A stretch of 57,909 bases of DNA. It comes from Acidobacteriota bacterium (GTDB taxonomy: Bacteria; Acidobacteriota; UBA4820; DSQY01). The notes under the pieces were generated by a model. The model saw nothing but the letters and a program-made list of their open reading frames with translations. It did no database searches and had not been told where the DNA came from. Numbering within the stretch: position 1 is the stretch's first letter; each line of letters starts with the position of its first letter. A program made the translations under genes and the position numbers. This document shows, one piece after another, positions 17,244 through 57,909 of the stretch. The DNA is taken from NCBI GenBank assembly GCA_021778515.1, contig JAJYCJ010000008.1:1-57909 (forward strand), in the 5' to 3' direction.

Positions 17244-18824
17244 TCAGGCTTGCAGGCCGGCGAGCGCCTTCAGGAAGCCCAGGACCTCGGCCGTGTCCGC
17301 GAGCGCGTAGCGCGCCGCGGTGGGCCGCTCATCCCCGAAATCGCGGACCACGACGCCCAGGCCGAGGTCCTCGACGGCGAGAAAGGCGTCTTCGTCGGTG
17401 AGGTCGTCCCCCACGTAGACGGGCAGGACGCCTGGGCCGCCCAGCCCCAGCCGCTCCATCATCCAGAGCAGGGCCTTGCCCTTGTTCCAGTCCACTCGGG
17501 GCTGAAGGTCGCACACCATCTTCCCCTCGGTCCTGCGGAGCCCCGGGAGGGCGCAGAGCACCTCCTCGACGGCCTGGGCGACCGTCGGGAGGTCGCCTTC
17601 GGTCACGTTGCGGTAGTGGGCCGCCACACAGAAGCGCTTGCGCTCGACGAGGGCGCCGGGCACGCCTTGCAGGCGCTCCCTGAGGAGCCGCTCCGCCTCG
17701 TCCACCAGCGGCAGAAAGGCCGGGTCCTGCTCGTAGTCGATCCGGCGCCCCTCGGGCCCCTGGATCTCGAAGCCGTGGCTCCCGGCGTAGAGGAGCCCGT
17801 CCAGGCCTACCATCCGCCGGACGTCCATCAGGTCCCGTCCGCTGACGACCGCCACGGTGGATCGACGGGCCAGCTCTTCGAGCGCGCTCCTCATCTCGCC
17901 GGAAAGAACCGCCAGCTCCGGGCTCGCCACGATGGGAGTGAGGGTGCCGTCGTAGTCCAGAAAGACCGCGAGGCGCTTGCCCCGTGCAGCGGCGGCGATC
18001 TCCTCGATCCGTTCGAGGGCGGACGGCAGGCGGGAGGTGAGGTGACCCCCGATCTCCGGACTCCCCGCGAGGCGCACCTGAGCGAGATCTGAAACCACGA
18101 TGTCCGCCCCCCCCAGCTCCAGCGCCCTCGTCTGTCCCGACCGGTCCACGCCGATGACGAGGCCGAACCCCGCTTTGCGCCCGGCCTGGACGCCGGGCAG
18201 GGCGTCCTCAACCACGGCCGTGCGGGCCGGCGAGGCGCCCAGGCGCCGGACCGCCTCCATGAAGATGGCGGGATCGGGCATTCCGGCAAGATGCAGGCCC
18301 TCCACGTCGTTGCCGTCCACCACCGCGTCGAAGAGGTGGCTCAGGCCCGCTCGCCCAAGGACGTTCCGCCCGTTGCGGCTGGAGGAGACGACGGCGGTCC
18401 GGACGCCGAGGACTCGAAGGGATCGAATGAAGGCGAGGGCCGAGGCGATGGTCTCCACGCCGTGGCGGCGGAGGAGCTCCAGGTAGATCTCGTTCTTGCG
18501 GTTGCCCAAGCCGCAGACGGTTTCCGCGTCCGGGCCGTCCTGAGGCGTTCCCGGGGGAAGCTCGATGGACCGGGAGGCGAGGAAGCTCTCCACCCCCTCG
18601 TAGCGGGGTTTCCCGTCCAGGTATCGGTTGTAGTCGGCGCACGGATCGAAGGGACGGAAGGTCTCATCCAGCCGGACGGCTCGCCGGCGGAGATAGTCGT
18701 CGAAGAGTTCCTTCCAGGCCGCCGCGTGCACCTTGGAGGTGCGCGTCACCACTCCGTCCAAGTCGAACAGGAAGGCGTCGAAATCGGAAGCGGATACCTG
18801 GTGACGGGCACCCTGGCGGGCCAT
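17244..18824 (-). CDS. Beta-phosphoglucomutase-like HAD domain fused to trehalose-6-phosphate phosphatase
   Basis: N-terminal FDAFLFDLDGVVTRTSKVHAAAWKELFDDYL, AVVSSSRNGRNVL, AVVEDALPGVQAGRKAGF; C-terminal LAVFLDYDGTLTPIVASPE, AVVSGRDLMDVRRMVG, YAGSHGFEI, YVGDDLTDEDAF. Confidence 0.92.
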   Translation of the reverse strand: MARQGARHQVSASDFDAFLFDLDGVVTRTSKVHAAAWKELFDDYLRRRAVRLDETFRPFDPCADYNRYLDGKPRYEGVESFLASRSIELPPGTPQDGPDAETVCGLGNRKNEIYLELLRRHGVETIASALAFIRSLRVLGVRTAVVSSSRNGRNVLGRAGLSHLFDAVVDGNDVEGLHLAGMPDPAIFMEAVRRLGASPARTAVVEDALPGVQAGRKAGFGLVIGVDRSGQTRALELGGADIVVSDLAQVRLAGSPEIGGHLTSRLPSALERIEEIAAAARGKRLAVFLDYDGTLTPIVASPELAVLSGEMRSALEELARRSTVAVVSGRDLMDVRRMVGLDGLLYAGSHGFEIQGPEGRRIDYEQDPAFLPLVDEAERLLRERLQGVPGALVERKRFCVAAHYRNVTEGDLPTVAQAVEEVLCALPGLRRTEGKMVCDLQPRVDWNKGKALLWMMERLGLGGPGVLPVYVGDDLTDEDAFLAVEDLGLGVVVRDFGDERPTAARYALADTAEVLGFLKALAGLQA

Positions 18825-19083
18825 CGAAGCTCCCTCTCCCCGTTCCTCTCCGCCGGAGCCTCGCGGCTCCAGGCGTCCACGCCGGCCGGCGCGGAAAACC
18901 CTCGCATCCGGGGCCGGCCCCTGGCGCGGGCCTCTCCGGTGCGGCACACTTAGACTTATAGCCTCATTCGCGACGGGATGCTACGGGGGAGAGCCGAGAT
19001 CGCCGCGAAGCATGACTTGCGCCGGTACATGCCGGGCGGGGGAGGGCTCGGGGCGGCCTTCTCCGCCCCGAAAGGAGGAGCGG

Positions 19084-42159: not shown

Positions 42160-42202
42160 CATGTTTTTCCTCTGTGTCTCTGTGCCTCTGTGGTTCATCT
42201 GT
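42160..42202 (-). repeat. CACAGAG-type dispersed repeat, copy 3
   Basis: Reverse complement cagatgaaccacagaggcacagagacacagaggaaaaacatgg, in the gap between malQ-glgB and the GH57 gene. Confidence 0.7.
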
Positions 42203-45200
42203 TCTCCGGCTTGAGGAAGAGGAGCGCGAGGGGCGGGAGGGTGAGGCCGAGGGAGAAGGGGCGGCCGTGGGCGGGCTCGGGCAGGGCCTCGGCCGCTCCG
42301 CCGTTGCCCAGGCCGCTGCCGCCGAATTCGGCGGCGTCGGAGTTGAAGAGCTCGACCCAGCGCCCCGGCACCTCCACCCCCGCCCGGTAGCCGTGCCGAG
42401 GGACGGGGGTGTAGTTGCAGGCCACGAGGATCGTGTCGCGCGGCTCTCCCGTGCGGCGCTCGAAGAGGAGCACGCTGCTCTCGGCGTCGTTGCAGTCCAC
42501 CCACGAGAAGCCCTCGGGGCGGCAGTCGGCCTCGTGGAGGGCCGGCTCTCTCCGGTAGAGCCCGTTGAGGGCCCGGACCATGGCCAGCAGGCCCTTGTGG
42601 GGTGCGAACTCCAGCAGGTGCCAGTCCAGGGAGCCATCGTGGGACCACTCACGCCACTGGCCGAACTCGCCCCCCATGAAGAGGAGCTTCTTGCCCGGCT
42701 GGGCGAACTGGGTGGCGAGGAGGGCGCGGAGGTTGGCGAAGCGCTGCCAGTCGTCGCCGGGCATGCGGCCCAGCAGGGAGCCCTTCCCGTGGACCACCTC
42801 GTCGTGGGAGAGGGGCAGCACGAAGTTCTCGGTGAAGGCGTAGAGGCCGCGGAAGGTCAGCTCGCCGTGGTGGTAGCGGCGGTGGATGGGCTCGTTGCGG
42901 AAGTACTCCAGGGCGTCGTGCATCCAGCCCATGTCCCACTTCAGGCCGAAGCCCAGGCCGCCGGCGTAGGTGGGCCGGGAGACCATGGGCCAGGCGGTGG
43001 ACTCCTCGGCCCAGGTCTGGACGCCGGGGAAGGCGGCGTAGATCTCCGTGTTGAGCCGCTTGAGAAAGTCGATGGCGTCGAGGTTCTCTCGCCCGCCGAA
43101 GGCGTTGGGCTCCCACTCGCCCTCCTTCCGCGAGTAGTCCAGGTAGAGCATAGAGGCCACGGCGTCCACCCTGATCCCGTCGGCGTGGTAGCGCTCCAGC
43201 CAGAAGAGGGCGCTGCTGAGGAGGAAGCTGCGGACCTCGTGGCGGCCGTAGTTGAAGATGGCGCTGCCCCAGTCCGGGTGGAAGCCCCTGCGCGGGTCCT
43301 CGTGCTCGAAGAGGTGGGTGCCGTCGAAGAACCCCAGGCCGTGCTCGTCCGTGGGGAAGTGGGAGGGGACCCAGTCCAGGATCACGCCGATGCCCTGCTG
43401 GTGCAGCGTGTCCACCAGGGCCATGAGGTCCTGCGGCGTGCCGTAGCGGCTCGTGGGGGCGAAGTAGCCGGTGCACTGGTAGCCCCAGGAGCCGTAGAAG
43501 GGGTGCTCCATGACCGGCATGAGCTCCACGTGGGTGAAGCCCGCCTCCTTCGCGTAGGCCGCCAGCTTGGGGGCGATCTCCCGGTAGCTGAGGGAGCGCC
43601 CCCCCTCCTCCGGGACGCGGGCCCAGGAACCGAGGTGGACCTCGTAGATGGAGACGGGGGCTTCGAGCGTCTGCCGCGAGGCGCGCTCGGCCATCCACCC
43701 GCCGTCGCCCCAGGCGTAGTCCAGGTCCCAGACGATGGAGGCGGTCCTGGGGGGCGTCTCGGCCCAGAGGGCGAAGGGGTCGGCCTTGTCCACGCGGTAG
43801 CCGTCCACTCGGGAGTCGATGTGGAACTTGTAGCGGTCGCCCTTCCGGGCCCCCTCCACGAAGCCCTCCCAGATGCCCGAGCTGCCCGAGGGTGAGAGCG
43901 GATGGCTTCCGGGCGCCCACCGGTTGAAGTCGCCGAGGACGCCGACCGACTCCGCGTTGGGGGCCCAGACGGCGAAATGGACGCCGCGCTTCCCCTCTCG
44001 CTCGCAGGGGTGGGCTCCGAGCCTGCGGTAGAGGCGGGTGTGGGAACCCTCGTTGAAGAGGTAGCGGTCCTCTTCCGTGAGCCGCAGCGAGTCGGCCGGC
44101 GGGAGCCCTCCTCCCTCCGGTTGGGCCTGAGTCCTCTTTCCCATGCTTTCCCCTCGTGATGTGGCGGTCTTCAGGAGCTCCAGAGCCTCGGCCACCTCGG
44201 GCCGGGCCGCCGACTCCTCCAGCGAGTAACGCAGGAAGCGGCTCCAGCTCGGCCGCTCTCCGGTCACTCCGGGCCAGTTCTGCGGGACTCTCTCGCCCCA
44301 GAGGTCCTCCAGGGAGACGACCACGAAGCCGGCCCGGCTCGCGCCGAGTTCGCCCAGCAGGGCTAGGAGCGCGGCGCGGGTCTGGGCGGCGTCCGTTCCG
44401 GCGGAGATGCCCAGTTGGCGGGCCACGTTCTCGCGGATCGCGCTCCGCTCCTCGCCTTCCAGCCGCGCCCCCTCCGGGTCCAGGAGGCCCAGCTCCCGGC
44501 GGTCCTCCACGTCCAGGCCCCGCCAGTAGGAGGCGAAGGGAGGCATGTCGTGGGTGTTGAGCGCGGCCAGGCTGCCCGGCGGCACCGCCGAGGAGGGCGG
44601 CGGGGAGGAGGGCCCCGTCTCGAAGGGAAAGACCCACATGCGACGAAGGCCCCGCCTCGCCATGGCCTGGCGCACCTCGGCGGGCACGGTGCCCAGGTCT
44701 TCGCCGACGATCCCGGTGCCGTGGCGGCGAGACTCCAGACAGACCAGCGCATGGAGGAGGTCGGTGGGGTAGCGGACGTAGAGGCCCTCGCGGGCCGAAA
44801 AGCCCGACGGCACCCAGAAGAGCCGGTGCATCCCCATGACGTGGTCGATCCTCAGGAGGTCGGCGTGGCGCATGGCGGCCGAGAGGGAGGCGCGCAGGTA
44901 CTCCACGCCCTCCGCGGTCCGGAGCGCCTCGGGATGGAGGGGAGGGAAGCCCCAGTCCTGGCCTCCCGAAAAGAAGGGGTCCGGCGGCGCGCCCGCCGAG
45001 ACGCCGCGGGCGAAGAGCCCCGGGTGGCGCCAGGTGTCGAAGCCGTGGGGATGGACTCCCAGCGGGTAGTCGAGGTAGAGCCCAACGCCTCGGCTCCGGG
45101 CGCTCTCGCGGGCCGCCTCCATCTGCTCCCGCGCGGCGAACTGGCCGTAGGCGTGGGCGAGAAAGGCGCCCGAGTCGTAATCATCCTCGCGCCACTCCCC

Positions 45201-46247
45201 ACGGCTCAGGCGCTCCTCCCAGGCGGGCCATCCCTCGCGCCGCCGCTCCGCGACCGCCCGAAAGGCCGCGTAGGCCGACAGCTCGGTCTCCTCTTGAAGA
45301 AAGCGCTCGAAGCGCCCGCGGCGAGGGCCGGCATCGGCCATCAGCCCGCGAGCGCACACCTCGATGGCGCGCCGCTTGAGGGCGTAGCCCCGCCGGTAGT
45401 CCACCTCCCCCGCGGAGCGAAGCCGGTCGGCCTCCTCCCGGAAGGCCGGGGAGTCCGCGAGGGCCCGGGCCTCCTCGGAGGCCGACCACTCCGGGAGCGC
45501 GGCCACATCCAGGTAGTACTCGTTGAGGAAGAGCCTGCTCACCGGGGAGTACGGGCTCGGGTCGAAGGGCTCGTCGAGGAAGGCCGCGTGCAGCGGCAGG
45601 GTCGCCGCGAGATTCCCCCCGCGCTCCGCCGCCAGGGCGGCCAGTCCCGCGAGCTGGGCGAAGCTGCCCGCGGGGACGGGGCCGCCGGCGCGCAGGGAGT
45701 ACAGCGGCGCGAAGAGGCCCCACCGCGGGCCCCGCTCCTGGGCCGGAGCGGCGAAGGCCCGGCGCGGGGCCACCAGGAGCAGCCCCTCGGCGGTGCGCCG
45801 CCCGAGCTTCACGGCCAGGCGGTGGCACCCCGCGGGAAGCGGCTGAGACCAGCGGGCCCTCGCACCGCGAAGGCCCGGCAGATGGCCCGGCGCCTCGGCG
45901 GGGAGCAGGGCCAGCGCCGCGCCGCGCTCCTCTCCGCTCTCCAGGCGCACGGCGGCCGAACAGGAGGTGGCTGAACTCCCCTTGGGCAGGGAGAATTCGA
46001 TGGAAAAGGCCGTGCCCTCGGCGGCGACCGTCACGGGGGGAAGTAGGCCAACCGAGTGCTTCTCGGCCAGCGCCCGCATCAGGGAGGGGGCCTCCTCCGG
46101 GCTCTCGATGGGAACGCCGAGCGCCCGCGCCACGGCCATCACCGCTTCCGTGGAGGCCCGGCGCACCCGGCCGTCCAGCGCCCGGTACCGGGTCTGGATG
46201 CCGAGCAGGGAGGCGAGCGAAGAAAGGGGACCACTTCCCGGGGACAT
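42195..46247 (-). CDS. 4-alpha-glucanotransferase (MalQ) fused in frame to 1,4-alpha-glucan branching enzyme (GlgB)
   Basis: N-terminal GH77 motifs [55 protein letters not shown]-terminal GlgB motifs [85 protein letters not shown]. Internal ATG at 44144 (MGKRTQAQ) with GAGGGG upstream. Confidence 0.93.
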
Positions 46248-46253
46248 GGGCGG

Positions 46254-49634
<3,381 letters not shown>

Positions 49635-49648
49635 GGCCTGGTCTCTCC

Positions 49649-51616
49649 TCAAGGTCCGATGCCCGTGCCGCGCGCCGGGCGCACTCTCAGGATGTGGGCC
49701 GGCAGCCGCTGGGGGTCCAGCTCCACGAAGTTCCTGGGGCCGTTCCAGGTGTAGCTCTCGCCTCCCAGCAGGTCCTCGACCCGGTAGCTCCCCGCCTCGG
49801 GAAGCCCCAGTGCGGACAGCCGGAGGCCGGTCCAGGCGGACTGGCGGTGGCGGGGATCCAGGTTCACCACCATCAGAAGGACGTTCTCCCCCCGCCGCTT
49901 GCTGTAGGCCAGGAGGTTCGGATTGTCGGTCTCGTGGAAGGTCAGAGGGTCCGCGAAGCGCAGGGCCGCGTTGGCGCGGCGGATGGAGTTCACCCTGGCG
50001 ATGAGTTCGCGCAGGCTCTCGGGGCTCTCCCGGTCCCAGCGGCGGAGCTCGTACTTCTCCGAGTGGAGGTACTCCTCGCTGCCGGGCTCCCTGGGCTCCG
50101 TCACGCAGAGCTCGTAGGGCGGGCCGTAGATGCCGTAGCTCGCCCCCAGGGTGGCGGCGAGGACGAGCCGGACCGCGAAGGCGGGCCGGCCGCCCTCCTG
50201 AAGGTAGGCGTGCAGGATGTCCGGTGTGTTGGCGAAGAGGTTGGGCCGGAGGATGTCCTTCAGCGGCGGGCTCGTCAGCTCCCGGAAATACTCCCGAAGC
50301 TCCCAGGAGCCGGTGCGCCATGTGAAGTAGGTGTAGGACTGGCTGAAGCCCGCCTTGGCCAGCCGGGCCATCACCTTGGGGCGCGTGAAGGCCTCCGAGA
50401 GGTAGATCGTCTCCGGGTGGCTGCGCTTGAGCGAGCCCAGGCACCATTCCCAGAAGGCGAAGGGCTTGGTGTGGGGGTTGTCCACGCGGAAGATGGAGAC
50501 CCCCTGCCCGATCCAGAACTCGAAGATGCTTCGGAGCTCGCGCCAGAGCGAGAGCCGGTCATCGCACTCGAAGTCGAAGGGGACGATGTCCTCGTAGCGT
50601 TTGGGCGGGTTCTCGGCGTACCGGATCGTGCCGTCGGCCCGGTGGCGGAACCACTGCGGGTGCTCCTTCACGTAGGGATGGTCGGGGGAGCACTGGAAGG
50701 CCACGTCCAGCGCCACTTCCAGCTCGTGCCGCCGGGCCTCCGCCACCAGCTCCCGGAACTCCTCGAAGGTGCCCAGCTCGGGGTGGATGGACTTGTGACC
50801 CCCCTCCTCCGAGCCGATGGCCCAGGGGCTGCCCGGGTCGCCGGGGCCGCAGAGCAGGGAGTTGTTGGCGCCCTTGCGGTGCGTGGTGCCGATGGGGTGG
50901 ATGGGCGGCAGGTAGAGGACGTCGAAGCCCATGCCGGCGACGTAGGGGAGCAGGGCGATCACGTCCCTGAATGTGCCGTGCCTGCCCGGCTCGGGCGAGG
51001 CGGAGCGGGGGAACATCTCGTACCAGGCCCCGTACCGGGCCCGCTCCCGATCCACGGCGACGGGAACCTCCAGCGGATAGGTGACGGCGAAGGGCCGGGG
51101 CGCGTGCCTCGCCATGAGGTCCGCCATCTCCGGGGAGGCGGCCGCGGCGAAGCGAGCGCTCTCCTTGCCGTGGTCTTCGGCAGCGGAAGCGGCGGCGCGA
51201 AGTCGCCGGGCCTCGGCGGGCGGGGCATGCCCGGCGGCCTCCTCGATCAGGGCGGCCCCTTCCCGCAGGTCCAGCTCCACGTTCTGGCCCGCCTGGAGCT
51301 TCTTGGCGGTGGCCTCGCGCCAGGTGGCGTAGCGGTCCACCCACGCGGTGAGGGTGAACTCGTAGGGCGCCTCCTCCTCCACGGTGAACTCGGCGGCCCA
51401 GCGGTCGTTCCCGAGGTGCTCCATGGGAAGTTCGCGCCAGCGGCGCTGCCCCTTCCGCCGATGGAGGAGCCTGCAGGCCAGCAGGTCGTGCCCGTCGGCG
51501 AAGATGTCCGCCTCCACGCGCACGCTCTCGCCTGGGGTGCGCTTGACGGGAAATCGCCCGCCGTCCAGCTGGGGGGCCACGGCCGTGATCACCACGCGCT
51601 GACGTCCGTCTTCCAT
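49649..51616 (-). CDS. glgE: Alpha-1,4-glucan:maltose-1-phosphate maltosyltransferase
   Basis: RYGAWYEMFPRSASPEPGRHGTFRDVIALLPYVAGMGFDVLYLPPIHPIGTTHRKGANNS, GVSIFRVDNPHTKPFAFWEWC, YLSEAFTRPKVM, NTPDILH. Confidence 0.96.
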   Translation of the reverse strand: MEDGRQRVVITAVAPQLDGGRFPVKRTPGESVRVEADIFADGHDLLACRLLHRRKGQRRWRELPMEHLGNDRWAAEFTVEEEAPYEFTLTAWVDRYATWREATAKKLQAGQNVELDLREGAALIEEAAGHAPPAEARRLRAAASAAEDHGKESARFAAAASPEMADLMARHAPRPFAVTYPLEVPVAVDRERARYGAWYEMFPRSASPEPGRHGTFRDVIALLPYVAGMGFDVLYLPPIHPIGTTHRKGANNSLLCGPGDPGSPWAIGSEEGGHKSIHPELGTFEEFRELVAEARRHELEVALDVAFQCSPDHPYVKEHPQWFRHRADGTIRYAENPPKRYEDIVPFDFECDDRLSLWRELRSIFEFWIGQGVSIFRVDNPHTKPFAFWEWCLGSLKRSHPETIYLSEAFTRPKVMARLAKAGFSQSYTYFTWRTGSWELREYFRELTSPPLKDILRPNLFANTPDILHAYLQEGGRPAFAVRLVLAATLGASYGIYGPPYELCVTEPREPGSEEYLHSEKYELRRWDRESPESLRELIARVNSIRRANAALRFADPLTFHETDNPNLLAYSKRRGENVLLMVVNLDPRHRQSAWTGLRLSALGLPEAGSYRVEDLLGGESYTWNGPRNFVELDPQRLPAHILRVRPARGTGIGP

Positions 51617-51724
51617 GCCTGTCCTCTCCGTGCCATCCCCCATGGGCCCTAGCCGGACCTTGTTCGAAACGTCTTCATACCATGGGATTATGCCGTGCCC
51701 GAGTCTGCGGGTCCAGTCCGGGCC

Positions 51725-51842
51725 CGCGGCCAGGCCCGGGTGGCCGCGCTCGGAGAACGCCACCGGCGCCGCGCCAAAGGCGCGGCCCGGCCCCGGCCGT
51801 GGTTCAGAGCCAGAAAGACGGCCTGCCTTGGACAGGCATGAT
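51725..51842 (-). repeat. Dispersed ~118-bp intergenic repeat, copy 2
   Basis: Reverse complement ATCATGCCTGTCCAAGGCAGGCCGTCTTTCTGGCTCTGAACCACGGCCGGGGCCGGGCCGCGCCTTTGGCGCGG..., matches 4666-4783. Confidence 0.75.
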
Positions 51843-51870: not shown

Positions 51871-54800
51871 CTAGGGCTTCGCGGAGGACGGATCGAGCTC
51901 GCTGACGGCCACGGGCGCGCTGACGCCCTTGAAGCTGCGCTCCTCCAGGGGGCCGTACGGGAACTCGCGCAGCGTGAGGGAGCGGATCCGGTCGGAGACG
52001 AGGATGCGGCCGGGCGCGCAGGCCGTCTCCAGCCGCTTGGCCAGGTTGATCCCCCGTCCGACGGCGGTGTACTCCATGTGCTCGGGCGCGCCGAAATTCC
52101 CCACCGTCAGGTAGTCCTGATGAATGCCGACGCGCAGCGTCAGGGAGGCGCCCATGCCCCTCTCCTGCCAGAGCCTGCCGAGGTCGGCCGTGCGCCGCTG
52201 CATGGCCAGCGCCATCCGCACGGCCCGGACGGCCTGCTCCGCGGGCTCCATCTCCTCGAAGGCGCCGAAGAAGCCCAGGATGCCGTCGCCCATGAAGCGG
52301 GCGAGGGTGCCGCCGTGGAGCCGGATGGCCTCCACCATCTCGGTCAGGTAGCGGTTGAGGAGGGCCGTGATCTCCTCGGGCTCGGTGCGCTCGGTGAGGG
52401 CCGTGAAGCCGGCCAGATCCGTGAAGAAGACGGTCACGAGCCGCCGCTCGCTCCCCAGCTCCACGTCCTCCTCCGAGAGGAGGACCTTCTCCACGAGCTT
52501 CTGCGGGAAGTACTTCGTCAGGCGCCGGTCCTTGGCGATCTGGATGAGCTGCTCGCGGACCTTCTTCTCCAGCTCCTCGTTGAAGCTCTTGAGCATGCGC
52601 TCCTGCTGCCGGATCCGGATGAGGTTCCGGGCCCTGGCCATGAGCTCCTTGGAGTCGAAGGGCTTGGGCAGGTAGTCGTCGGCCCCCACCTCGAGCCCCT
52701 CCACCTTGCTGTCCTGGGAGGCCTTGGCCGTCAGGAGCATGCACGGCACGTGGTCGAGCTGGGGGTCGCGCCGGAGGGCCCGGCAGAGCTCGTACCCGTC
52801 CATCCGGGGCATCATCACGTCGCTGATCACGAGGTCCGGCGGCTCGCGCCTGGCCAGCTCCAGGGCCTGCTCCCCGTCGCAGGCCTCCAGGACGCGGTAG
52901 CGCCGGGCCAGCACGCTCCGGATGTAGGCCCTCACCTCGCCGTTGTCCTCGGCGATCAGGACCGTCTCGGTGGAACCACCGGGCACCGCGGCTTCCGGCT
53001 GCTCGGCCGGCTCCGGGGGCGCCGGTTCCGGGAGGCTCGCGGGGATTCGGGAGCGGCGCTCTTCCGCCGCCTCGCCGGAGTGCACGATCTGCTCGTCCCT
53101 CAGGTGTTCTCGGCCCAGGGGCAGTAGCAGTTCGAACCGGGCTCCGGCCCCCGGTTCGCTGGAGGCGGTGAGCGCGCCCCCGTGCAGGACCGCCAGCTCC
53201 CTGGCCAGGGCCAGGCCGATGCCGGATCCTCCCTGGGAACGGTCGGTAGGCCGGCCCGACTGGTAGAAGCGCTCGAAGACGTGGGGCAGATCCTCCGATG
53301 GGATCCCCGGCCCGCTGTCCTCCACGGTGATGCGGGCCGCGGGCCCGCGCCGGGGGTCATCGGCGCGCTCCAGCGCCACCGAGACGGAGCCGCCCCGCGG
53401 AGTGAACTTGAAGGCGTTGGAGAGGAGGTTGTAGAGGATCTTCTCCATCTTCTCGGCGTCCAGGTAGACGGGGCATGGCCCATCCGTGGGGAGGTACCTC
53501 AGAGTGATGCCCTGGCGTTCGGCGAGGGGCGTGAAGGAGTGCACCACGCTGGCGAGGAAGGCCGCCAGATCGGCCTCCCGCGTGTGCAGCTCCAGGCGGC
53601 CCGCCTCCAGCTTGGAGATGTCGAGCAGTTCGTTGATGAGGTGGAGGAGGCGGCGGCCGTTGCGCAGCATGAGCGAGAGGGCCTCCACGACCTCCTTTCC
53701 GAAGGTGCCGTAGGCCCCGCCGAGGGCGTCCTCCAGCGGTCCCAGGATCAGCGTGAGGGGTGTCCGGAACTCGTGACTTACGTTGGCGAAGAAGCGCGTC
53801 TTGACCTGGTCCATCTCCTGCAGCTTCTTCTCCTGGGCGCGGACCACCTCCAGGGCCCGCTCCGTGCGCTCCTTTTCCTCCTGGAGGTTCCGCGTCCGCG
53901 CGGCCACCAGGGCCACCAGCTCCCGCTCCCTGGCCTTGAGCCGTCCGATTCGGGCGAGGTAGAGGCCGCCCGCCAGGAGAAATGTGCCCATGAGGCAGAG
54001 GACCAGGAAGGCCCAGGTCTGATAGAAGTGCGGCCGGATGCGGAGGGAGAAGGAGGAGGCCCCCTCTCCCCAGGCGCCACCCGGCGCCGCCGCCATGACC
54101 CTGAAGACGTAGCTGCCGGGCGGGATGTTCGTGAAGAAGGCCTCGCGGCGCGTGCCGGCCTCCACCCATCCCTCCTGGAAGCCCTCCAGGCGGTATCGGA
54201 AACGGACGCGCCGGGAGGAGGCGAGCGTCATGGCCGTGTACCTGAACTCGAGCTCCCCCTTGCCGGGAGGCACGTCGGCCAGGTGACCGTTCATGGGTAG
54301 CGGCCGGCGGTCGTACAGGGCCTCCTCGACCCTCGCCGGGACCACCGGCGGCGGGGCGCAGGCGAGGACGGGGGCCACGGAGACCAGCCCCTTGACCGTC
54401 GGAAACCATAGCCGGCCTTCCTGGTCCCGCCACGCGGCCGGCTGGGTGCCGCCGTTGCACTCGTTGGAGCGCATGCCGTCCGCGCGGCCGAAGGCCAGGC
54501 AATCGACGCGGGATTTCACCCCTTCGGCCACGGAGCGGAGCTCCGCGAGGGGGGCGCAGTAGACCCCCTTGTTGCAGGTCATCCAGAGCCGCCCCGCCCC
54601 GTCCTGGACGATCGAGTAGACCACGTCGTCGAAGAGGCCCTGGCGCGTTGTCACGGCCGACCAACGGCCGGCGTGATAGAGCCCGAGTCCGCCGCCGTAG
54701 GTGCCCGCCCACAGGCCGCCGCCAGCGTCCTCGAAGAGCGCGAACACCTGATGCTGGGGCAGTCCGGAAGCCGTCGTGAAGGTGGTGAACCCGCCTCCCG

Positions 54801-56283
54801 CAAAGTGGGCCAGACCCTTGTAACTGCCCACCCACAGGCTTCCGTCCCTGGCACCCAGCAGCGCCACCACGGCCGTATCGAGGGTTCCCCCCGGCTGGTC
54901 GAAGACCGTCATCCGGCCGCCCGCGAAGCGGGCCAGACCGTGGCCCGTGCCGAACCAGAGGCTGCCGTCCCGGGTGGCGGCCATGGCGTAGACGGAGGGG
55001 TTCGGCAGGCCCTCCCGCTCCGTCAGGGAGAGCTTCGGCCCTCCGGTGAGGCGCTGGGCGCCGCTGCCCGTTCCCACCCAGAGCGAGCCGTCGGGGGCCA
55101 GCATGAGGCTGTAGACGTTGTCGTCCAGGAGGCCGTCCCTGCTGGTGATCCGGGTGACGCGGCCGGAATCGATGCGGCAGAGTCCGGCGCCGTATGAGCC
55201 AACCCACAGCGTTCCCTTTCCATCCTGGAGAAGGCACGACACCATGTTGTCGGGCAGTCCCTCCGCGGTTCCGAAGGGAATGAACGGTCCGCCAGTCAAC
55301 CGGTTGACGCCCCCGCCCACGGTCCCGGCCCAGAGGTCGCCCTCCCGGTCCTCGAAGAGCGAGATGACCACGTCGTTGGAGAGCCCCTGTTGGCTGGAAA
55401 GGCGTTCGAAGCGCCCGTTCCGAAGGCGAAGGAGCCCGCTGCCGTAGGTGCCGACCCAGAGGGAGTGCTCACGGTCCGCCAGCAGGGCGTACACCATGCG
55501 GTTGGGGAGCCCGTCCCGTTCCGTCCAGTGCCTGAACTTCCCATCGGCGTATGAGTAGAGTCCCGCCCCTTCGGTGCCCGCCCAGAGCGTTCCATCGGCG
55601 CCCTCGGCCAGGCAGTAGACCCTGGCCCTCCCGGGCCCCGCCGGGTCGGTTTCGGCGGTGAACACCCCGCCGTGGTACCGGCACAGCCCCGCCGAGGTCG
55701 CGAACCACAGGGAACCGTCTCGCGTCTCCAGGATGCACTGAACGCCTTTGTCGGGCAGCCCATCGGGTGTCCCGAAGGCCTGGAATCGGCCGCCGTCGAA
55801 GCGCATGGCGCCCCCGTCGGAGGTGCCGATCCAGAGGGCGCCGTCGCGGGCCGAGGTCAGCCAGCGGATGCCCTCCCCCGACAGGCCGTCCCTCCTGGTG
55901 AAGCGGACGAAGGACGCTCCCTCCATGCGGATCAGGCCGGCATCCGTGCCGATCCAGAGGACGCCCGGTGCCGGGGCGCAGAGGGCGGTGACGTTGTTGC
56001 TGGCGAAGGCGGGCGTGTTGGACTTGTCGTAGAGCTGGAACCGGACGCCGTCGAACCGCACGAGCCCTTCCTGGGTGCCCATCCAGAGATAGCCGTCGTC
56101 GCTCTGCGCGATGGCCTGGACCGAGTTCTGGGGGAGCCCCTGGTCCGTCGTCCATGCGGCGAGGCCGTACTGCGTCAGGGCCCGATCGGGAGCCAGCGCG
56201 TCCGTGCCCAGCGGGGCCATGAAGACCGCCGCGAGCAGGAGCGAAGCCGCCATCCGGCTGCGGGGCGGCCACGAAATGGCCAT
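51871..56283 (-). CDS. Reg_prop beta-propeller / Y_Y_Y / histidine kinase / receiver / class III nucleotide cyclase hybrid sensor
   Basis: Signal peptide; many LWxGTxxGL propeller repeats; Y_Y_Y-like region FRYRLEGFQEGWVEAGTRREAFFTNIPPGSYVFRVMA; TM; VSHEFRTPLTLILGPLEDAL; GSGIGLALARELA; LVISDVMMPRMDGYELC; VTVFFTDLAGFTALTERTEPEEITALLNRYL and RFMGDGILGFFGAFE. Confidence 0.95.
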   Translation of the reverse strand: MAISWPPRSRMAASLLLAAVFMAPLGTDALAPDRALTQYGLAAWTTDQGLPQNSVQAIAQSDDGYLWMGTQEGLVRFDGVRFQLYDKSNTPAFASNNVTALCAPAPGVLWIGTDAGLIRMEGASFVRFTRRDGLSGEGIRWLTSARDGALWIGTSDGGAMRFDGGRFQAFGTPDGLPDKGVQCILETRDGSLWFATSAGLCRYHGGVFTAETDPAGPGRARVYCLAEGADGTLWAGTEGAGLYSYADGKFRHWTERDGLPNRMVYALLADREHSLWVGTYGSGLLRLRNGRFERLSSQQGLSNDVVISLFEDREGDLWAGTVGGGVNRLTGGPFIPFGTAEGLPDNMVSCLLQDGKGTLWVGSYGAGLCRIDSGRVTRITSRDGLLDDNVYSLMLAPDGSLWVGTGSGAQRLTGGPKLSLTEREGLPNPSVYAMAATRDGSLWFGTGHGLARFAGGRMTVFDQPGGTLDTAVVALLGARDGSLWVGSYKGLAHFAGGGFTTFTTASGLPQHQVFALFEDAGGGLWAGTYGGGLGLYHAGRWSAVTTRQGLFDDVVYSIVQDGAGRLWMTCNKGVYCAPLAELRSVAEGVKSRVDCLAFGRADGMRSNECNGGTQPAAWRDQEGRLWFPTVKGLVSVAPVLACAPPPVVPARVEEALYDRRPLPMNGHLADVPPGKGELEFRYTAMTLASSRRVRFRYRLEGFQEGWVEAGTRREAFFTNIPPGSYVFRVMAAAPGGAWGEGASSFSLRIRPHFYQTWAFLVLCLMGTFLLAGGLYLARIGRLKARERELVALVAARTRNLQEEKERTERALEVVRAQEKKLQEMDQVKTRFFANVSHEFRTPLTLILGPLEDALGGAYGTFGKEVVEALSLMLRNGRRLLHLINELLDISKLEAGRLELHTREADLAAFLASVVHSFTPLAERQGITLRYLPTDGPCPVYLDAEKMEKILYNLLSNAFKFTPRGGSVSVALERADDPRRGPAARITVEDSGPGIPSEDLPHVFERFYQSGRPTDRSQGGSGIGLALARELAVLHGGALTASSEPGAGARFELLLPLGREHLRDEQIVHSGEAAEERRSRIPASLPEPAPPEPAEQPEAAVPGGSTETVLIAEDNGEVRAYIRSVLARRYRVLEACDGEQALELARREPPDLVISDVMMPRMDGYELCRALRRDPQLDHVPCMLLTAKASQDSKVEGLEVGADDYLPKPFDSKELMARARNLIRIRQQERMLKSFNEELEKKVREQLIQIAKDRRLTKYFPQKLVEKVLLSEEDVELGSERRLVTVFFTDLAGFTALTERTEPEEITALLNRYLTEMVEAIRLHGGTLARFMGDGILGFFGAFEEMEPAEQAVRAVRMALAMQRRTADLGRLWQERGMGASLTLRVGIHQDYLTVGNFGAPEHMEYTAVGRGINLAKRLETACAPGRILVSDRIRSLTLREFPYGPLEERSFKGVSAPVAVSELDPSSAKP

Positions 56284-56499: not shown

Positions 56500-57909
56500 C
56501 TACCAGGAGAAGCTGAAGGGGACCGATATCCCTCCGTCGTCGTTGTTGGTGACCGTTACCCAGACAGAGGTGCCCCTGGGAACCATCGCCTTCAGAGCGC
56601 CGCCGCCTTTGGCAATGAGGAAACCAGAGTTCTTGAGGAGGGTTTGGGGAACGGCGGTCCCGTTCACCTTGACGGTGCAGCCCTGGTGAAAGTTCGTCCC
56701 GTAAACCTTGAGCCGGAACGGGTTGCCTGCTTTGGCCACGCTGGAAATGCCGGGCGGAGTGATCGTCACCTGCACGAAGTCCTGTCCCGTCACGTCGGAG
56801 CCCGAGAGCGTGACTGATCGAGCGGGCGGAGTGAAGCTGTGCCCGAGCTGGCTGGGCAGGATGGAATAGACGCCGTCGGGCAGGTCCGTGAAGGAGTAGG
56901 CGCCGTCGGAACCGGTGTAGACCGTCGACGTCTGGATTCCGGAGAGGCCGATCGTCACCGAGGCGACGGGATTGCCCTGGCCGTCAGTCACGGTCCCGGA
57001 GATGGAGTGGACCAAATTGGCCTGGCAGTTGCTCGCCAGGGCCGTCCCACTGGCGCCCATAACCAACAGAAGACTGTTGTCGGAAGTGGCCGCGTCAAGG
57101 TCCGAGGCGGTGCCCGAGGAGACAGACGTCCAGTGGCTGCCGTCGGTCGAAGTCAGGAGGGTACCGGCGCTCCCCACGACCACAAAGAGCCCGGAGCCGT
57201 ACGCTACCCCGTACAGGTCGAGGGTCGTCGGGGGCGCCAGGTTGGTCCAGGTGGAGGAGTCGGGGCTGGTGAGGATGCTCCCCGAGGCACCCACCGCCAC
57301 GAAGCGGCCGTTGCCGTAGGCCACCCCGTACAGCGAGAGGCGGGATTGGGTTTGGAAAACAGTGTGACTCCCCGTGGGGCTCAGAGAGACGATGAGCCCC
57401 GAACTGCCCACGGCGACGAAACGGCCGCCGGCGAAAATAAGCCCGTAGGCGCTCTCGGTGGTCACGGGAGAGATCTTGGTCCAACCCGTGCCGTTGCTAC
57501 TGAAAAAAATGTCGCCGGAGAGGCCAGCGGCCGCAAAGTAGCCCGCACCGAAGGTGACTGCCCTCAATCCGTTCGCATTGGCGAGGGCAATGCTTTCCCA
57601 CGAAGCCCCATCGGGGCTCATCAGGGCGGTCTGACCGCCCACCGCCACAAACCGGCCGGCGCCCGCGGCTGCCCCGTAGGTCACGTCGTAGAGGGTGTCC
57701 GTAGTCCCCGAAGACTGTGAGGTCCAGGTCTGACCGTCGGGGCTCGTGAGCACGGTCCCCGAATCCCCCACTGCGACGAATTGCCCCCCCCCGTAAGTGA
57801 CAGCCCTCAAGGTGGCCGAGGACGGCATGGTGGTGACCGGGGCCCAATTCGTGCCACAGGACTGGGCGGACACGCCGAGGCCGCACAGGGAGCCCAGCAA
57901 CACGATCGA
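56500..57909 (-). CDS. Secreted seven-repeat beta-propeller + carboxypeptidase-regulatory-like + IPT/TIG protein (N-terminus at or beyond window edge)
   Basis: Seven units of the type LRAVTYGGGQFVAVGDSGTVLTSPDGQTWT; ISGTVTDGQGNPVASVTIGLSG...DGAYSFTDLPDGVYSILP; GISSVAKAGNPFRLKVYGTNFHQGCTVKVNG. Confidence 0.78.
   Translation of the reverse strand, partial: SIVLLGSLCGLGVSAQSCGTNWAPVTTMPSSATLRAVTYGGGQFVAVGDSGTVLTSPDGQTWTSQSSGTTDTLYDVTYGAAAGAGRFVAVGGQTALMSPDGASWESIALANANGLRAVTFGAGYFAAAGLSGDIFFSSNGTGWTKISPVTTESAYGLIFAGGRFVAVGSSGLIVSLSPTGSHTVFQTQSRLSLYGVAYGNGRFVAVGASGSILTSPDSSTWTNLAPPTTLDLYGVAYGSGLFVVVGSAGTLLTSTDGSHWTSVSSGTASDLDAATSDNSLLLVMGASGTALASNCQANLVHSISGTVTDGQGNPVASVTIGLSGIQTSTVYTGSDGAYSFTDLPDGVYSILPSQLGHSFTPPARSVTLSGSDVTGQDFVQVTITPPGISSVAKAGNPFRLKVYGTNFHQGCTVKVNGTAVPQTLLKNSGFLIAKGGGALKAMVPRGTSVWVTVTNNDDGGISVPFSFSW

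Follow-up and report, generated by a model that had tools for sequence, protein, structure and literature searches.

The DNA analysed here, referred to as the window, is a stretch of 57,909 nucleotides from an Acidobacteriota bacterium (assembly GCA_021778515.1, contig JAJYCJ010000008.1), and the gene of interest within it encodes a single protein in which a propeller receptor, a histidine kinase (HK), a receiver (REC) and a class III nucleotide cyclase follow one another. The gene is an ATG-started open reading frame on the minus strand, from 56283 to 51871 (51871..56283), of 1470 amino acids. It is not a chance frame, because the second species of the genus keeps an ortholog with 90% identity and the full domain order, although there the gene is split over two overlapping contig ends. 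Pfam places Reg_prop, Y_Y_Y, HisKA, HATPase_c, Response_reg and Guanylate_cyc domains along the chain in that order, each above its curated cut-off. An earlier reading of the sequence (the original prediction) had described a chain of about 1470 residues running from a propeller and a Y_Y_Y domain through a transmembrane helix to HisKA, HATPase, REC and class III cyclase, and this description is confirmed.

The first 30 residues resemble a signal peptide on inspection. They lead into a predicted periplasmic double beta-propeller at residues about 30-680 (54244..56196, minus strand, as are all features of the protein; Pfam Reg_prop 2.3e-63), in which 13 Reg_prop blade motifs of the LW-x-GT type are recognisable, spaced 41-43 residues apart. 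A Y_Y_Y domain follows (residues 689-749, 54037..54219; Pfam 1.7e-14), and inspection together with the helices of a structure model places a transmembrane helix at residues ~757-790. The model of residues 1-800 (mean predicted local distance difference test score, pLDDT, 86.5) aligns with BT3049 and BT4663, both double-propeller receptors, along the full length of their periplasmic parts (template-modelling score 0.74/0.80 to 3v9f), and so does the receptor sequence. These are receptors of the Bacteroides hybrid two-component systems (HTCS), in which a YYY domain accompanies two propellers, each predicted to have seven blades (PMC3243724). Domain search, alignment and model thus all favour the HTCS-like input that had been proposed. 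The AraC-type C-terminal domain (HTH_18) was not found in the window protein by a Pfam search that does detect it in a true HTCS of L082, and no SusC/SusD-type locus was seen among the neighbours scanned. The genome has two other Reg_prop/Y_Y_Y proteins, C107 (L149:2390-5359) and C151 (L148:2579-5665), both GGDEF-ended. By their domain content, all three propeller receptors of the genome are predicted to feed second-messenger enzymes, of two kinds, and since the other two end in GGDEF, the lineage appears to route one receptor type into both.

The relay that follows the membrane helix is intact in its residues. The HisKA domain (residues 828-895, 53599..53802; Pfam 9e-15) has the H-box SHEFRTP from residue 836, and the HATPase_c domain (residues 942-1057, 53113..53460; Pfam 1.4e-28) has its N, G1 and G2 boxes at 952, 989 and 1018. 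The receiver (residues 1108-1218, 52630..52962; Pfam 1e-28) retains the acidic site at 1110-1114, the phospho-acceptor Asp1155 in a motif that begins at 1153, Thr1185 and Lys1207. The kinase boxes and the four receiver residues are conserved among distant members of the family as well. A coiled REC-cyclase linker with the cyclase transducer helix (residues 1219-1281, 52441..52629) connects the receiver to the class III cyclase domain (residues 1283-1445, 51949..52437; Pfam 4.3e-16). A structure model of residues 801-1470 was not used, as it was fair for the kinase and receiver while much of the cyclase part fell below a pLDDT of 60.

The cyclase domain has the features by which class III cyclases are recognised: a profile match above the cut-off, two metal-binding aspartates (D1289 and D1333) and the transition-state pair N1413/R1417. 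Among solved structures, CyaB of Pseudomonas and CyaC of Arthrospira match it best. The intact metal and transition-state residues point to cyclic-nucleotide synthesis as the output, as originally proposed. The expectation that the catalytic residues are kept holds for both metal-binding aspartates and fails for the base-recognition lysine, which is replaced by arginine: in an alignment with CyaB and CyaC that is ungapped around the sites, the base-recognition pair is R1329/T1406, in place of the adenylate-type Lys-Asp/Thr pair expected of a CyaC-type cyclase. The pair described for adenylate cyclases is Lys with Asp or Thr, and that for guanylate cyclases is Glu together with one of Cys, Ser, Thr, His, Ala and Gly (PMC2576301, PMC4215837). 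Among the class III cyclases retrieved, Lys/Thr is by far the commonest pair (67), followed by Glu/Arg and Glu/Gly (11 each) and Arg/Thr (8); the Arg/Thr rows all belong to the window protein's clade and the Glu/Arg rows are all gammaproteobacterial members (L072, L075-L077, L079-L085). Because Arg/Thr and Glu/Arg fit neither the adenylate type nor the listed guanylate (Glu-X) type, the sequence does not name the product. The pocket may have been retuned in a distinct receptor-cyclase lineage, with Arg/Thr in Acidobacteriota and Glu/Arg in Gammaproteobacteria, to make something other than plain cyclic AMP (cAMP), possibly cyclic GMP or a cyclic pyrimidine, a speculative idea that we hold to be improbable. 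In the cytidylate cyclase EaPycC, an arginine at the equivalent position (R142, four residues before the metal-binding Asp) is among the CTP-binding residues (PMC11224242). If the pocket is indeed retuned, a pyrimidine or other cyclic nucleotide would take part in sensing the environment, a setting other than phage defence.

Relatives were collected by a search with the REC-cyclase part in 149 relatives and an eight-row alignment scan of GTDB contigs. The full domain order recurs in Ca. Fischerbacteria (L061/L070) and, among Gammaproteobacteria, in a groundwater gammaproteobacterium (L072), an Aeromonadales metagenome-assembled genome (L077) and the Kangiellaceae, including Aliikangiella marina (L079) and A. 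coralliicola (L082). The combination of receptor, relay and cyclase is therefore real and conserved across phyla, and is not unique to the window protein. The cyclase clade that holds these architectures has support of 100/99 in the cyclase tree and is rare in the phylum (10 of 396 genomes at E 1e-52). One member, L060 (7042-12906, 1955 residues), has the propeller, Y_Y_Y domain, kinase, receiver and cyclase with an insert between Y_Y_Y domain and kinase that by eye resembles a GAF domain, and a Ser/Thr kinase at the C-terminus. The cyclase version in A. coralliicola has next to it, on the other strand, a propeller HTCS of the classical kind that ends in HTH_18 (L082:10693-14769).

We propose, with a probability of about 0.72, that the window protein is a one-protein transmembrane signalling chain from an HTCS-type receptor through kinase and receiver to a class III cyclase. 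The periplasmic double propeller with its Y_Y_Y domain would bind a ligand, and the signal would pass along the single transmembrane helix and a coiled coil to the histidine kinase, which would phosphorylate the receiver of its own chain. Receiver phosphorylation could then alter the pairing of the C-terminal cyclase domains, with dimerisation as the putative switch, and hence make cyclic-nucleotide synthesis faster or slower. Among the nine cyclic-nucleotide-binding domains found in the genome there may be targets of the product. A precedent exists in CyaC, in which histidine kinase, receiver and class III cyclase are likewise combined in one chain. According to the title of a study of this protein (Kasahara and Ohmori 1999, as cited in PMC1183210), autophosphorylation and phosphotransfer activate the cyclase. 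Of the phosphorelay-gated cyclase that was originally envisaged, the relay and the cyclase are both present and intact, and the gating itself is made plausible by analogy with CyaC.

Three observations weigh against this proposal. With arginine in place of the base-recognition lysine, efficient cAMP synthesis is not to be assumed. L060 has a serine at the base-pocket position in addition to its extra Ser/Thr kinase, and the cyclase domain may therefore be put to another use in some members. Lastly, there are members of the family without kinase or receiver, and in these the relay is dispensable for coupling of receptor and cyclase. In the relay-less L062, which is of the same family and comprises receptor, transmembrane helix and cyclase, the membrane coiled coil leads directly into the post-REC linker of the window protein (FNKELEQKVREQL against FNEELEKKVREQL), which shows where the missing cassette would begin and end. 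In L063, L064 and two tandem genes of L078, the HK-REC cassette is also absent and the transmembrane helix meets the cyclase without any coiled coil. The receptor tree groups the window protein with G001 and L062 (100/99), and L063 with L064 and L078 (97/94), and the cyclase tree shows the same groups. Because the two trees agree, the conserved core consists of receptor and cyclase, and the relay is an insert that can be removed; the core was inherited together, and the HK-REC cassette was probably gained or lost at least twice. A single origin of the relay-less form was rejected, since the trees separate L062 from L063, L064 and L078, and the two different junctions also favour two events; an approximately unbiased test that held the relay-less proteins together gave a marginal p of 0.04, for a group named after the tree was seen. 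Loss best fits L062, because the REC-cyclase linker remains there. In the HK-REC tree the gammaproteobacterial cassettes stand apart from the acidobacterial ones on long branches that do not settle their source, and cassettes may have been exchanged between lineages.

The main alternative to a relay-gated cyclase is that the receptor signals directly to the cyclase through the coiled coil, with HK-REC serving as a modulator or as a separate phospho-output to other proteins. Both kinds of relay-less junction and the co-inheritance of receptor and cyclase are what this would lead one to expect, but the kinase and receiver residues are conserved among distant members, which would be surprising in a passive spacer, and CyaC offers a precedent for gating by the relay. 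Direct coupling of this kind is rather unlikely, if less so than the alternatives that follow.

It is more doubtful still, and less likely than direct coupling, that the cyclase domain has little or no catalytic activity and acts in dimerisation or as a sensor of nucleotides. The replaced lysine, the serine of L060 and the Gly and Glu substitutions in one L078 copy lean in this direction; the metal-binding aspartates and the Asn/Arg pair, however, are retained in the window protein and in nearly all members. Of the two tandem propeller-cyclase genes of L078 (3304-6516 and 6468-9635), one has Gly/Ser in the base pocket and a Glu in place of the second metal-binding residue, which suggests an active/inactive pair.

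The weakest alternative, and a very unlikely one beside direct coupling, is that the protein responds to glucans and regulates the GlgE pathway encoded next to it. In its favour are the position of the gene, adjacent to and codirectional with glgE in both species of the genus, and the glycan binding of the related Bacteroides receptors (PMC3243724); against it are the failure to find glgE in the other carriers checked, the unrelated neighbours elsewhere, and the terminator-like and promoter-like sequences that lie between the two genes. As first noted, glgE (49649..51616, minus strand) is indeed the next gene downstream, but it is separated from the stop of the sensor gene (51871) by 254 bp up to its conserved ATG (51616). 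Within this gap lie, both on the minus strand, a terminator-like hairpin (51821..51837) and a sigma-70-type promoter-like site of glgE (TGGACC-17-CATAAT, 51687..51715). The hexamers are identical in the second species, where the glgE-proximal ~100 bp are nearly identical, whereas the sensor-proximal part, including the hairpin, is not conserved. This anatomy points to separate transcription of the two genes, and glgE, judged to lie outside the system, is probably a genus-specific neighbour with its own transcription start.

Further downstream on the same strand, glgE is followed by treS-mak, malQ-glgB and a GH57/DUF3536 gene, an order retained in the second species. Outside the genus, glgE was not found in 13 other relatives at E 1e-50, nor at E 1e-20 in 10 genomes of the cyclase clade, 9 of which have the full receptor-relay-cyclase, with a query that works elsewhere. 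No genes of the glgE cluster were seen near members outside the genus in the retrieved flanks, some of them short at contig ends; the neighbours there include genes for MutH, ThrE, PriA, glutamine synthetase, FtsH, an extracytoplasmic function (ECF) sigma factor and similar proteins. The conserved association with glgE to be expected of a regulator of the GlgE pathway is thus lacking in the genomes checked, and adjacency confined to one genus is weak evidence of a functional link. The suggested link to glucan metabolism is therefore unsupported, and the architecture does occur away from glucan genes, a finding that had been named in advance as one that would speak against such a link. Among 15 genomes searched, only the two of this genus have glgE, so the GlgE cluster may be a recent acquisition. 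Within the cluster, a TreS-maltokinase fusion (46254-49634, minus strand) adjoins glgE to form a compact GlgE pathway, and MalQ (GH77) is fused to a GlgB-like branching enzyme (CBM48, GH13) in a protein of 1350 residues (42195-46247, minus strand) with 91% identity to that of the second species (L059). Elsewhere in the window, a HAD hydrolase fused to trehalose-6-phosphate phosphatase (17244-18947, minus strand) may provide a second trehalose route. The edge of the contig, upstream of the receptor gene, holds a gene for a repeat-rich beta-propeller-like protein with a CarboxypepD_reg domain (56500-57903, minus strand).

A receptor best known from glycan-sensing transcription factors is thus joined to class III cyclases as well, whether or not a phosphorelay lies between them, and natural proteins that have or lack the HK-REC cassette provide a ready comparison of receptor-cyclase coupling. 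The non-canonical base-recognition pairs turn the identity of the product into a clean experimental question, and the cultured carriers A. marina and A. coralliicola make the Glu/Arg branch testable. No pairing of Reg_prop/Y_Y_Y with an adenylate or guanylate cyclase was found in a literature search of incomplete coverage.

Both halves of the protein are known from other systems; their union did not turn up in the papers searched. With the HTCS BT4663 and BT3049 it shares the double seven-bladed propeller and Y_Y_Y receptor, the transmembrane helix and, with intact residues in the same chain, HisKA, HATPase and REC; it differs in having a C-terminal class III cyclase where HTCS have the AraC/HTH_18 DNA-binding domain. 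With CyaC of Arthrospira (Spirulina) and Anabaena it shares the histidine kinase, receiver and class III cyclase in a single chain, but it has a periplasmic propeller input and an Arg/Thr base pocket where CyaC has Lys/Thr. The Reg_prop/Y_Y_Y diguanylate cyclases, GdpX2/GdpX3 of Xanthomonas (PMC6637768) as well as C107 and C151, also wire this receptor type to nucleotide second-messenger synthesis, although their output is a directly joined GGDEF domain, and C107 and C151 lack the kinase and receiver. CyaB of Pseudomonas aeruginosa (3r5g) and the 7TMR-DISM cyclases (L071, L090) belong to the same broad class III group and likewise take their input from a membrane receptor, but their sensor differs, they have no relay, and their base pair is Lys/Thr.

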